From positions 1,640 through 6,712 of the forward strand of contig MGQK01000044.1 in assembly GCA_001797815.1 (NCBI GenBank): 5,073 nucleotides of DNA, in the 5' to 3' direction. The notes under the pieces are model-generated. The model was not told the DNA's origin and ran no database searches. It saw nothing but the letters and a program-made list of their open reading frames with translations. Origin of the DNA: Deltaproteobacteria bacterium RBG_13_61_14. GTDB taxonomy: Bacteria; RBG-13-61-14. Of the stretch, positions 506 through 2,960 are shown in pieces. A program made the position numbers and the translations under genes. Each line of letters opens with the position of its first letter. The first letter of the stretch is position 1.

Positions 506-517
506 GATTGGGGTCAG
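506..517 (+). repeat. GATYGGGGTCAG motif, left copy
   Basis: GATTGGGGTCAG reads on the + strand here. The same motif recurs in the same orientation at 1511-1522 (C for the variable T) and 1532-1543 (T). From memory, strings of the type GGGGTCAGAGCTTTAA are dispersed in many proteobacterial genomes near REP-associated tyrosine transposases, but no transposase is present in this window. The three copies bracket the AT-rich gene. Confidence 0.6.
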
Positions 518-623
518 TGCTTCAATTTTCAATTAAGGCGAGGCTGGCGAAAAATGGGGCAAAGGAAAATTAACAGAGCAAATAGTCATGCGCCTGAAAT
601 GAGAATGAAGTCGGCAAATAAAC

Positions 624-702: not shown

Positions 703-1446
703 ATGGAGCTTAAGCCCCACGAAATTGAAGCCAAGCAAATCGAAATCGAGGAGCGCAAAGTTGCCCTACAGCACAAGCAGATAAAGCTTGATCTAATAAA
801 GTGGGTAATTGGTGGTGTTGTAGTAATAGTTGGCTTTTTATTAATCCGCCCAAGAGAGCAGAACCGACTTGACCAGGCCTTCCAATTAGAGGTCAGCAAA
901 GCCTACATTGCTGCCGTGCAAAGCGGAGACCTCGATTTGTGGCAAAGAAGTCTTAACCAAATTGAGGCATTCAACGATGATAAGAGAAGTAAGCTTGGAA
1001 TTTTTATTGAGAGTGAGAAAGGGAGATTACAACAAGCCAGGAAAGAACACGATATGATAATTAATCTACAGGAAGAAATAACTAAAATTACCGCTGAGAA
1101 GGGTAAGCTGGATGCCGAGTTTATTAAGGTAAAAAACGATTTAGGAAATTATAATTTCGATAGAAATGAAGCAAATAATAAAATGCATGAATTGCAAAAT
1201 AATATAACTGAGAAAGAGATTCAATTATTTCAAATATCTAATCAATTAAAGGAGACCCAAAAGAGGCTAGGCAGCGGTGATTCGTGTAAAACAATGGTTC
1301 CTTCGGATCTATTTGCGTTATGCGTTAGCGAGGATGAAAGGTGCACCCAATGCCAGCTTATCAAAAAGTATCCATCTGGAAACATATATTTTATCAATTG
1401 TTTCGATCAAAAAATAATTATTGATTGGTCAGGTGCAAAAAAATGA
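703..1446 (+). CDS. Orphan membrane-anchored coiled-coil protein with Cys-rich tail (247 aa)
   Basis: I do not recognise a named family. Residues 1-30 are a charged Glu/Lys/Gln-rich helix. Residues ~31-48 (LIKWVIGGVVVIVGFLLI) are a single membrane segment, followed by RPREQNR. Residues ~55-105 form a helical region with a YIAAVQSGDLDLWQRSLNQIE stretch that looks like a small helical-repeat piece. Residues ~105-190 are strongly coiled-coil-like, rich in Glu, Lys, Gln and Asn. The last ~55 residues carry five cysteines (C195, C207, C214, C217, C233), including a CTQC pair, which could bind zinc or form disulfides. There is no cleavable signal peptide. Topology is ambiguous because positive charges flank both sides of the helix. 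The start is supported by AGGAGGT. The gene is far more AT-rich than its neighbours (13 of 60 bases G/C in 1141-1200), a sign of transfer. Its TGA overlaps the next start by ATGA. A structural, sensor or defence-accessory membrane role is possible but unproven. Confidence 0.85.
   Translation: MELKPHEIEAKQIEIEERKVALQHKQIKLDLIKWVIGGVVVIVGFLLIRPREQNRLDQAFQLEVSKAYIAAVQSGDLDLWQRSLNQIEAFNDDKRSKLGIFIESEKGRLQQARKEHDMIINLQEEITKITAEKGKLDAEFIKVKNDLGNYNFDRNEANNKMHELQNNITEKEIQLFQISNQLKETQKRLGSGDSCKTMVPSDLFALCVSEDERCTQCQLIKKYPSGNIYFINCFDQKIIIDWSGAKK
1431..1435 (+). promoter_or_regulatory. Shine-Dalgarno for the truncated frame at 1443
   Basis: AGGTG lies 7 bases before the ATG at 1443, inside the last codons of the upstream gene. 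Together with the ATGA stop/start overlap it supports a genuine, coupled second gene here. Confidence 0.55.
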
Positions 1447-1562
1447 TCCGGATATTGTCTCCACCGCGGCTCCTGCTTCTCGTTCTTATTGCTGGTCTCA
1501 GCGCCAATAGGATCGGGGTCAGAGCTTTAAGGATTGGGGTCAGATCTAAACATAAAACATAA
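1443..1562 (+). pseudogene. Truncated exported-protein gene: signal-peptide-like N-terminus fused to repeat sequence
   Basis: The ATG at 1443 overlaps the TGA of the upstream gene (ATGA) and has AGGTG 7 bases upstream. The 39-residue product starts MIRILSPPRLLLLVLIAGLS: a basic residue, then a leucine-rich hydrophobic core, then small residues (AGLSA), as in a Sec signal peptide. There is no lipobox cysteine. After residue 22 (Asn) the frame enters the 21-base tandem repeat and reads RIGVRAL then RIGVRSK, ending at TAA 1560-1562. The natural reading is a secreted partner of the 247-aa protein whose mature domain was lost when the repeat-bearing DNA replaced it, leaving only the export signal. 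Alternatives are a genuine very small exported peptide, or a chance frame. The start signals and the signal-peptide pattern are seen directly; the loss of a mature domain is inference. Confidence 0.5.
1510..1551 (+). repeat. 21-base tandem repeat, two units carrying GATYGGGGTCAG
   Basis: Units 1510-1530 and 1531-1551 align without gaps. Both start GGATYGGGGTCAGA, then diverge in the last 7 bases (GCTTTAA versus TCTAAAC). The period is a multiple of 3, so the truncated upstream frame stays open and encodes RIGVR twice. The core is the same motif as the left copy at 506-517. Confidence 0.8.
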
Positions 1563-1566
1563 CAAG

Positions 1567-1594
1567 CAGTGGACAGTGCACGGTGCACAGAGGA
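1567..1594 (+). repeat. Heptad array, consensus CAGTGCA
   Basis: Consecutive 7-mers read CAGTGGA, CAGTGCA and CGGTGCA, followed by a degraded CAGAGGA. The first three differ by one or two bases. Confidence 0.65.
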
Positions 1595-1619
1595 GAGGTT
1601 TAGAATTTCGCGGGGAGAC

Positions 1620-1646
1620 CCCACCCTCGCCGGAGCGAGGGATGGG
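1620..1646. repeat. GC-rich hairpin, 11 bp with one bulge
   Basis: CCCTCGC (1624-1630) pairs perfectly with GCGAGGG (1635-1641) across a CGGA tetraloop. CCCA (1620-1623) extends the stem with TGGG (1643-1646), leaving A1642 bulged. No T-run follows on either strand, so a REP-like palindrome is more likely than an intrinsic terminator, although it could still slow polymerase between the convergent genes. Confidence 0.7.
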
Positions 1647-1698
1647 CTACAAGGATGGTCAAAGGCTGACGAGGAAGAATGTCTGTCCGTTCCAAAGC

Positions 1699-1726
1699 GT
1701 GTCAGGTGTCAAGTGTCAGGTGTCAG
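1699..1726 (+). repeat. Heptad array, four units of GTGTCAG
   Basis: Four head-to-tail 7-mers GTGTCAG start at 1699, 1706, 1713 and 1720. The only change is a final A instead of G in the second. This is the cleanest array in the patchwork. Confidence 0.85.
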
Positions 1727-1747
1727 GGAGATGAAACTGGTTGGTGC

Positions 1748-1774
1748 CCTTCGTGTCCTTCGTGTCTTAGTGGT
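1748..1774 (+). repeat. Nonamer array, CCTTCGTGT
   Basis: Two identical 9-mers CCTTCGTGT at 1748-1756 and 1757-1765 are followed by a degraded CTTAGTGGT at 1766-1774. Confidence 0.7.
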
Positions 1775-1783
1775 GAATTTTTG

Positions 1784-1810
1784 AATCTGCGAAATCTGTG
1801 TAATCTGTGG
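1784..1810 (+). repeat. Nonamer array, AATCTGTGK
   Basis: Three 9-mers in a row: AATCTGCGA (1784), AATCTGTGT (1793) and AATCTGTGG (1802). All share AATCTG and differ only in the last three bases. Confidence 0.75.
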
Positions 1811-1825
1811 ATGATCTTGAAGAGT

Positions 1826-1860
1826 GTATGTCGTATATCGTATGTTGTATGTTGAGTTAG
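1826..1860 (+). repeat. Heptad array, GTATGTY
   Basis: Units GTATGTC, GTATATC, GTATGTT and GTATGTT start at 1826, 1833, 1840 and 1847, followed by a degraded GAGTTAG. Confidence 0.8.
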
Positions 1861-1878
1861 AGCCTCAAGTCTCTTCCC

Positions 1879-1936
1879 TGACTACCGACTACTGAAGTTG
1901 AGTTCCCGGTTCCAGTTTACAGTGCCTGGTTTACTG
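1879..1936 (+). repeat. Degraded heptad arrays (YGACTAC; GTTCCMG)
   Basis: TGACTAC and CGACTAC are adjacent at 1879-1892. GTTCCCG and GTTCCAG are adjacent at 1902-1915. The following 7-mers TTTACAG (1916), TGCCTGG (1923) and TTTACTG (1930) keep a loose period-7 alternation. The signal is weaker than in the other arrays. Confidence 0.5.
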
Positions 1937-1965
1937 ACCTTCGGTCTAGCCTTGGGCAAACCAGG
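1925..1965. repeat. Interrupted palindrome with nested small hairpin
   Basis: CCTGGTTT (1925-1932) is the exact reverse complement of AAACCAGG (1958-1965). Inside the 25-base loop, GACC (1936-1939) pairs with GGTC (1943-1946) around TTC. It lies 21 bases past the stop of the minus-strand operon, where a terminator would be expected, but no T-run follows in that direction. Confidence 0.55.
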
Positions 1966-1985
1966 AACCTCGAACCGTGAACCGA
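1965..1985 (+). repeat. Heptad array, GAACCNN, abutting the dehydratase stop
   Basis: GAACCTC, GAACCGT and GAACCGA start at 1965, 1972 and 1979. The array ends at the base next to the TAA (1986-1988, minus strand) of the dehydratase gene. Confidence 0.75.
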
Positions 1986-2960
1986 TTACTGACTTAACAT
2001 TTCCAGGAAGGCCTGGAGCCGGGTGAGGGTGCGGATGTCCACCGGGCCGGGCCGGTCGCCCTCAAGGGAGAGGACGGGCAGGCCCAGGGTCTTCCGGAAA
2101 ACAATGGCCTCCACCTGCCGGTGGCAAAAAGTCTGGGCATAGTGCACGACGCCTTGGACCCCCCGTTGCCGGCACTCGCTCCGGATGTCCAGCGCCCGGG
2201 ATTCAGTATCGTAAGGATAAGTGTAACGGGCATATTGGTCGGCCAACGCGCCGGAGTCATCCAGCATGGCGAACTGGCGCTGAGTCTCGTTGAACACCAC
2301 CGCGGCGTCCTGGCTCTCGATCACCTGGTAGAGATCGTCCCAGATCGGGGGCACGCCCACGTAGGCCAGGCGGAACCGCGCCTTCCGGGGCGGACGGGAT
2401 TCCGCCTGGGCCAGGAATTGGTCCAGGTCCTGCTCTAAGCGGTCCGGGTCGCGGTTGAAATCGCTGGCCGAGACCAGCCAGAGGTGGTTTTCCGCGCCAA
2501 AGACTTTTCCTTCCTGCCAGGTGAGCTCGTCCAGGCGGGCGAGCTTTTGCCGGAGGCGATGCAGCCGCTCGCGCATGCCGGCGATTGCCTTTGCGCTTGC
2601 CCCGTAATGCCGGCTGAGCTTCTCGATCTCGATGGTCAAGGCGCCCCGATCCCGGTCGGCCGGATAAGCGAAGGGCACGGTGCGGAACCCCTTGAGCCGC
2701 AGCACCTCCAGGAGCTTCTCGGTGGACGAGCAATCGCCCCGGGTCACCCCGATCACCTCGTCAATGCCCTCGCTTATCACCGCGGCGTAAATGCCCTTGA
2801 TCCAGGCGCAGAGGTTGGCCGGGAAGCCGTCCTGCTCGGCCCGGGCGATCAGCTCGTCCCGCTCCGGATGGGTGATGAAGAGGTTGTTGAGGTCCACCGG
2901 GGTGTGTCCGCCGGCCAGGATGACTTCCACCGGGACGGTGGTGGTAATGCCCACGCGCAT
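1986..2960 (-). CDS. 2-hydroxyacyl-CoA dehydratase family protein (HgdB/BcrC-like, short form, 324 aa)
   Basis: It belongs to the 2-hydroxyglutaryl-CoA dehydratase D-component family (COG1775-like). Members bind a [4Fe-4S] cluster through three cysteines and, once an ATP-driven activase donates an electron, eliminate water from 2-hydroxyacyl-CoA or reduce benzoyl-CoA. The N-terminus ITTTVPVEVILAGGHTPVDL and the C-terminal LPVLSLEGDRPGP with IRTLTRLQAFLEML are family signatures. Candidate cluster ligands are C51 (in NLCAWIKG), C77 (GDCSST) and C279 (QTFCHRQ); C263 is extra. A basic, Arg/Leu-rich helical region spans ~115-145. At 324 residues it is shorter than the ~370-430 typical of HgdA/HgdB. 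No second subunit or activase is visible. The ATG at 2960 overlaps the upstream stop (TGATG) and has AAAGGAG 10 bases before it. It is the last operon gene seen, ending in the repeat patchwork. The substrate is unknown; a non-catabolic redox or maturation role is possible. Confidence 0.85.
   Translation of the reverse strand: MRVGITTTVPVEVILAGGHTPVDLNNLFITHPERDELIARAEQDGFPANLCAWIKGIYAAVISEGIDEVIGVTRGDCSSTEKLLEVLRLKGFRTVPFAYPADRDRGALTIEIEKLSRHYGASAKAIAGMRERLHRLRQKLARLDELTWQEGKVFGAENHLWLVSASDFNRDPDRLEQDLDQFLAQAESRPPRKARFRLAYVGVPPIWDDLYQVIESQDAAVVFNETQRQFAMLDDSGALADQYARYTYPYDTESRALDIRSECRQRGVQGVVHYAQTFCHRQVEAIVFRKTLGLPVLSLEGDRPGPVDIRTLTRLQAFLEMLSQ

Follow-up and report, generated by a model that had tools for sequence, protein, structure and literature searches.

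The patch of short tandem repeats described here is probably a mosaic of small dispersed repeats, none of them autonomous, which have accumulated in intergenic DNA that tolerates them, and its arrays were distributed over the genome in ready-made blocks of ~30-60 bp. The pieces would be: orphan terminal repeats of the RAYT/TIRYT (HUH Y1) type, a GTAG-type REP, hairpin elements, and tandem micro-arrays with units of 7 or 9 bp. The window (the whole stretch of 5,073 nucleotides that was analysed; G000:C44:1640-6712) belongs to a genome of 4.74 Mb in 132 contigs, and the patch fills the gap between two convergent genes, that is, between two 3' ends: an ORF of 247 aa at 703-1446 (+) that matches nothing in Pfam and a gene of the HGD-D family at 1986-2960 (-). 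At positions 1-433 of the window, an ORF with Kelch-type repeats ends in two tandem 210-bp copies that are 91% alike.

A common 7-base period within 1563-1992, as proposed in the first-pass annotation, was borne out: the identity count at lag 7 was 167, versus 107.3 in 500 dinucleotide shuffles (z = 6.7; z = 7.1 against shuffles for 1447-1985), and the remaining lags were flat, save 14 and 21, which are multiples of 7. The 9-base period claimed alongside holds for two exact 9-mer runs (CCTTCGTGTCCTTCGTGTC and AATCTGTGTAATCTGTG; p = 0.002) but is weak over the patch as a whole (lag 9, z = 1.5). Tandem Repeats Finder called CAGTGCA (1567-1590), GTGTCAG (1699-1727) and TGTATGT (1825-1854), as well as a 9-mer (1744-1766) and AATCTGTGA (1784-1809). 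Three of the six heptad arrays originally listed (CAGTGCA, GTGTCAG and GTATGTY) are thus among these calls; the other three (YGACTAC, GTTCCMG and GAACCNN) have merely 2-3 units apiece and are weak taken singly. GTTCCMG and GAACCNN, moreover, are not the unrelated sequences they were taken for but the paired arms of one inverted repeat (1902-1918/1966-1982), and a heptad doublet slightly upstream (AAACATA x2 at 1548-1562) had been overlooked. The patch shows what defines the heptamer class, namely an above-chance number of intergenic tandem arrays with units 5-11 nt long. A structured RNA was also considered as a reading of the patch and dropped, since Rfam covariance models gave no match to the window at E up to 1. 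The following modules were recognized:

510..536 (+): orphan RAYT/TIRYT-type terminal repeat, GGGGTCAG TGC with the doublet TTCAATTTTCAATTAA; the motif also flanks RAYT genes of the same genome
1515..1533 (+): orphan RAYT/TIRYT-type terminal repeat, GGGGTCAGAGCTTTAAGGA, without a clear heptad doublet
1536..1562 (+): orphan RAYT/TIRYT-type terminal repeat, GGGGTCAGATCT with the heptad doublet AAACATA x2
1567..1590 (+): heptad array CAGTGNA of ~3.4 units, internally palindromic (GTGCACGGTGCAC)
1620..1650 (-): GTAG-tagged REP, GTAG CCCATCCCTCGC TCCG GCGAGGGTGGG as read on the minus strand, with a hairpin and an inverted repeat
1699..1727 (+): heptad array GTGTCAG GTGTCAA GTGTCAG GTGTCAG, dispersed as a block
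1748..1774 (+): 9-mer array CCTTCGTGT CCTTCGTGT CTTAGTGGT, from Tandem Repeats Finder and the period spectrum
1784..1813 (+): 9-mer array AATCTGCGA AATCTGTGT AATCTGTGGATG of the AATCTGYGN type, a MITE arm in another genus
1825..1854 (+): heptad array GTATGTC GTATATC GTATGTT GTATGTT with the tail G(A/G)GTTAG; 18 copies listed, unit order copied as a block
1880..1895 (+): short heptad pair GACTACC GACTACT, recognized from the sequence and seen again at other loci of the genome
1902..1982 (no strand): inverted-repeat (hairpin) element with arms GTTCCCGGTTCCAGTTT (1902-1918) and AACCTCGAACCGTGAAC (1966-1982)

The arms of the last element are 17 nt long with 82% complementarity, the inner arms being GTGCCTGGTTT/AAACCAGGAAC, and its fold has z = -3.2 versus shuffles. 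The REP at 1650-1620 (-) combines a hairpin palindrome, an unpaired GTAG tag and dispersed copies in the genome; the GTAG class of REP is described as a palindrome of 20-40 bp with an unpaired GTAG at one end (PMC3733652). The block 1536..1562 was found again beside CAGTGGACAG at other loci, and CAGTGNACAGTGNACAGTG, from the CAGTGNA array, has 18 exact matches in the genome.

The genome-wide recurrence of the arrays that the first-pass annotation called for was found: BLAST of 1447-1992 gave 74 matches in the own genome, the patch itself counted. Among the GTATGTY copies of the genome the unit order GTATGTC GTATATC GTATGTY GTATGTY is kept, and between copies there are 0.71 differences per unit for units at the same position, versus 0.97 for other units (permutation P = 1.5e-4, 11 copies; those with long common flanks were collapsed by hand ahead of the test). 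The GTGTCAG copies keep their odd second unit (permutation P = 0.03, 4 copies); in both tests, units were shuffled within each array copy. The flanks of the array copies are mostly unrelated past ~10-15 bp, and some copies may have spread with larger segmental duplications. Since the copies have the same unit-to-unit differences, the arrays spread as blocks, without expansion in place, which would not predict a kept unit order together with diverging flanks. Between modules the order is preferred but loose (25 collinear versus 11 anti-collinear pairs on the same strand, and 15 on opposite strands), which fits a mosaic; one long composite element was considered and dropped, the order being a mere preference.

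Related phages point the same way: at one orthologous gene junction, one phage has GTGTCAG x3 and the other a palindrome, and a second junction is occupied by a GTGTCAG array or by an inverted CTGAAACG pair (8-mer), or is almost empty, so that whole blocks come and go, by gain or loss. Of the suggestion that some process 'generates or captures' heptad arrays, the capturing half is therefore upheld, as the patch gathered pre-formed blocks: array copies keep unit order and odd units, and related phages differ at one gene junction. Of arrays being generated at this spot there is no sign. The related phages L274/L280, L348/L355 and L357/L358/L359 exchange arrays of heptads or octads and GGCAGGCTT-type palindromes for one another at the same gene junctions. 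Viral contigs carry GTGTCAG x3 in 35 stretches versus 8 and 0 for two control units, an excess that is modest and owed in part to near-identical phages. Some array copies elsewhere sit in inverted pairs. However, an inverted partner within 400 bp exists for just 7 of the 36 period-7 arrays in the own-genome sample, and most heptad arrays are therefore not hairpin arms; they lack the palindrome or inverted doublet of a REP/REPIN, with the element at 1902-1982 of the window as the exception.

Unlike the heptads, AATCTGYGN is a sequence common to bacteria at large. Its arrays were found in 29 of 192 genomes (~15%), with up to 127 matches per genome (52 in the own genome) and 0 for the reversed control. 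The window's order, a CTTCGTGTN array and then an AATCTGYGN array, recurs exactly in 12 stretches, all from MAGs labelled Planctomycetota or subgroups, Chloroflexi or Neomarinimicrobiota, where the 9-mer module of 1748..1774 precedes AATCTG arrays too. The statement that similar strings occur in other environmental genomes was thus correct, as arrays recur in many of them. Within one family (f61), G061 has 127 AATCTGYGN copies and five congeners have 0; array counts in another genus of this family are 14, 81 and 20, a burst-like spread.

In another genus the AATCTGYGN and 8-mer arrays move as MITE-type arms. This genus (g189) has a ~130 bp MITE whose inverted arms are AATCTGCG arrays and whose terminal repeats resemble CAGGGCTGATGCAAAGTC; the target duplications GGTTGGAATGC, GAGGGAAACGT and GCCTTAATCG were seen in single copies, and further near-perfect ones exist. 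One MITE copy of G206 lies between similar 11-bp copies, and two congeners have the exact empty site, a single GCGCGTAGGGG. A second element, with the 8-mer CCTTCGCG x3, is likewise flanked by an 11-bp target duplication, and G205 has the empty site. Because 8- and 9-mer arrays ride there as MITE arms with target duplications, the 9-mers need no special synthesis, and nothing points to the unusual template-directed DNA synthesis that had been raised as a possible source. A search for the autonomous transposase of the g189 MITE gave no DDE_Tnp_1 locus with both terminal repeats. While AATCTGYGN is thus shared with the window, the two differ in setting: in g189 it is arm sequence of a transposing MITE, whereas the window's array is solitary and lacks CAGGGCTG-type terminal repeats, and no partner arm for a MITE-like pairing was found for the 9-mer arrays.

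Several further loci were noted in this connection. At the site orthologous to L293, G207 has GGGGATC x5 heptads and other repeats where G206 has the AATCTGCG element. On a phage-like contig whose ORFs include terminase-like and portal-like ones (L041, L063; IMGVR_UViG_3300044816_000209), about ten AATCTGCG hairpin arms lie at gene junctions, and some of these arms are read through as protein. No relatives of this element-rich contig, and no congeners of G185, were found.

The 7-base period itself extends well beyond the patch. In 360 kb of the own genome, 19 intergenic period-7 arrays were found versus 0 in shuffles, and unit lengths other than 7 were rarer among the short intergenic arrays; the density of 486 per Mb (coding: 56 per Mb) is biased upward, as the sampled contigs were picked for holding matches. 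Period 7 is also foremost in the intergenic DNA of 40 stretches that were taken, unselected, from other genomes of mostly different families (10 versus 1.0 expected, with 6 at the multiple 14), and nearly every array has its own unit. A heptad vocabulary common to bacteria was considered and found unsupported, since the unbiased controls are level with the units (of 192 genomes, 5 have CAGTGNA arrays and 4 have the reversed control; for GTGTCAG both numbers are 2). Units common to loci number 13 versus a null mean of 6, a figure inflated by the choice of loci. The heptad unit sequences are lineage-specific, and the period alone is held in common. In G065 the reversed control GTGACANGTGACANGTGAC, with 88 matches, is a heptad family of its own, and the unselected genome stretch L375 has AGGGACC heptads at 1106 and 1268, as an inverted pair ~160 bp apart.

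A period without a common sequence is what one would expect if each array was born where it lies, by in-place slippage with a preferred 7-bp step, in intergenic DNA that tolerates it and with local seeds as units. Among the long simple repeats of most prokaryotes, heptamers are indeed given as the most abundant (Mrazek 2007, cited in PMC4679880 and PMC4692102), and a polymerase footprint has been proposed to account for their abundance (PMC4679880, PMC4692102). Yet a single genome repeats identical units many times with conserved unit order, the arrays cluster with REP and RAYT repeats, and the phage junctions vary by whole blocks and not by unit number; as a full account of the patch we therefore regard slippage as unlikely, although it may still be the step from which the arrays originate. 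A different starting point is that the arrays are operator or RNA sites of global regulators or RNA-binding proteins, kept under selection. The tandem heptads and TCTCCGTSY of Geobacter metallireducens, many of which form opposed pairs, have been annotated as sites predicted for global regulators (PMC2700814), and in Beggiatoaceae TAACTGA heptads directly precede start codons (PMC4679880). The arrays analysed here, however, do not prefer promoter gaps (0.65 per kb in divergent, 0.62 in convergent and 0.90 in tandem gaps), so that the regulator-site reading finds no support in gap type; the patch lies between two 3' ends, and arrays are missing or exchanged at orthologous junctions, all of which makes binding sites very improbable.

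The step of 7 bp could also be set by the geometry of a protein, if the heptad arrays are, or derive from, the recognition iterons of HUH Y1 transposases, each family with a heptad of its own. The genome has 19 Y1_Tnp genes, and the majority of the RAYT-sized ones (316-325 aa) bear GGGGTCAG...CTGACCCC flanks: GGGGTCAG lies upstream and CTGACCCC downstream, inverted, of RAYT genes including those at L305, L307, L308, L310, L314, L315 and L318, i.e. on both flanks and in the orientation of RAYT/TIRYT terminal repeats. GGGGTCAG agrees with GGGGWSAS, the motif of TIRYT ends (PMC3733652). For dispersed copies away from the genes, the own-genome sample gave 81 different GGGGTCAG contexts of 65 nt, a number that takes in chance and coding occurrences, and three of these are in the window (510, 1515 and 1536). 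A second RAYT-linked repeat, GGTGTCCCC/GGGGACACCATACTTAATTC, occurs at 661-682 of the window and also beside a RAYT gene in L311. In 18 of the 31 distinct GGGGTCAGNNCT repeats, a run of 7 nt recurs at lag 7 with no fewer than 6 of 7 positions identical, and the heptads vary by copy, whereas each of the lags 4-6 and 8-12 gives 0-3 of 31. Upstream of RAYT genes of other lineages the lag-7 doublet was found in 7 of the 19 with the motif, and overall lag 7 is raised (10/36 versus 1.9 expected, p about 0.005), but so is lag 8 (6/36 versus 2.0), the downstream side has no lag-7 signal, and the doublet frequently overlaps a TTGACA-like promoter box. A Y1_Tnp gene is present in 26 of the 29 genomes with AATCTG arrays versus 93 of the 163 others (Fisher p = 7e-4), an association that could track genome size or lifestyle. 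The heptad-rich G095 gave no Y1_Tnp hit, and RAYTs can therefore not be the sole carrier. On balance we consider an iteron origin of the arrays doubtful, with rather long odds against it. The wider conjecture, that iteron-like HUH Y1 repeats with a lineage-own 7-bp unit and a period set by the spacing of the protein, amplified as end fragments, make up much of the intergenic period-7 signal of bacteria, is a speculation with a slightly better, still small, chance. For the origin of the 7-bp step, a slippage bias is the simplest reading and RAYT iterons are the boldest.

The mosaic of dispersed repeats accommodates both the block copies and the mixed content of the patch. The pieces in the own genome would have been moved in trans by transposases, and insertion of later repeats into earlier ones (nesting) would have produced the patchwork. 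The first copy of a heptad array most likely arose because mutation in general favours tandem duplications of 7 bp, as in the published polymerase-footprint idea, and arrays that landed in mobile ends may then have been amplified.

That prokaryotes favour heptamers as their short tandem unit has been known for nearly two decades, and an accepted cause is lacking. The present results split two lookalikes, a period without common sequence (the heptads) versus a bacteria-wide AATCTGYGN tied to transposing MITEs by empty sites, and they suggest a connection, one that can be tested, of heptads with the ends of one transposase family. They also hold a warning for annotation, as array-bearing hairpins get read as gene parts and as regulator sites. 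A literature search returned no papers on the array strings themselves, and comparison with named plasmid and phage records gave short, weak plasmid matches only and no phage matches.

The patch is of a known kind and belongs in part with the mosaics of REP/REPIN/BIME and RAYT/TIRYT (PMC2817692, PMC3116915, PMC3733652). Like these, it consists of short dispersed intergenic pieces in mosaic clusters, partly in inverted pairs, with GGGGWSAS ends around RAYT genes and a GTAG-tagged REP in the window or genome; the GGGGTCAG and GTAG pieces fit, whereas most micro-arrays here are tandem, unpaired and non-palindromic, and the unpaired heptads do not share the palindrome feature. With the long simple (heptamer) repeats of prokaryotes, such as the intergenic GGGAATC of Xanthomonas and Nostoc (PMC4692102) and TAACTGA (PMC4679880), the patch shares the dominance of period 7, the intergenic site and lineage-specific units, but here there are many units per region and genome, each in 2-4 imperfect copies, and fixed blocks are dispersed. 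The sites of Geobacter metallireducens (PMC2700814) are alike in being intergenic tandem heptads and 8-9-mers (TCTCCGTSY), there mostly in opposed pairs; they were described as regulator sites, whereas the evidence here favours dispersed repeats. New with respect to these systems are the block copying, a bacteria-wide 9-mer with empty sites, and the heptad doublet at RAYT ends; within the limited literature search, the main text of PMC3733652 does not mention such a doublet beside GGGGWSAS.
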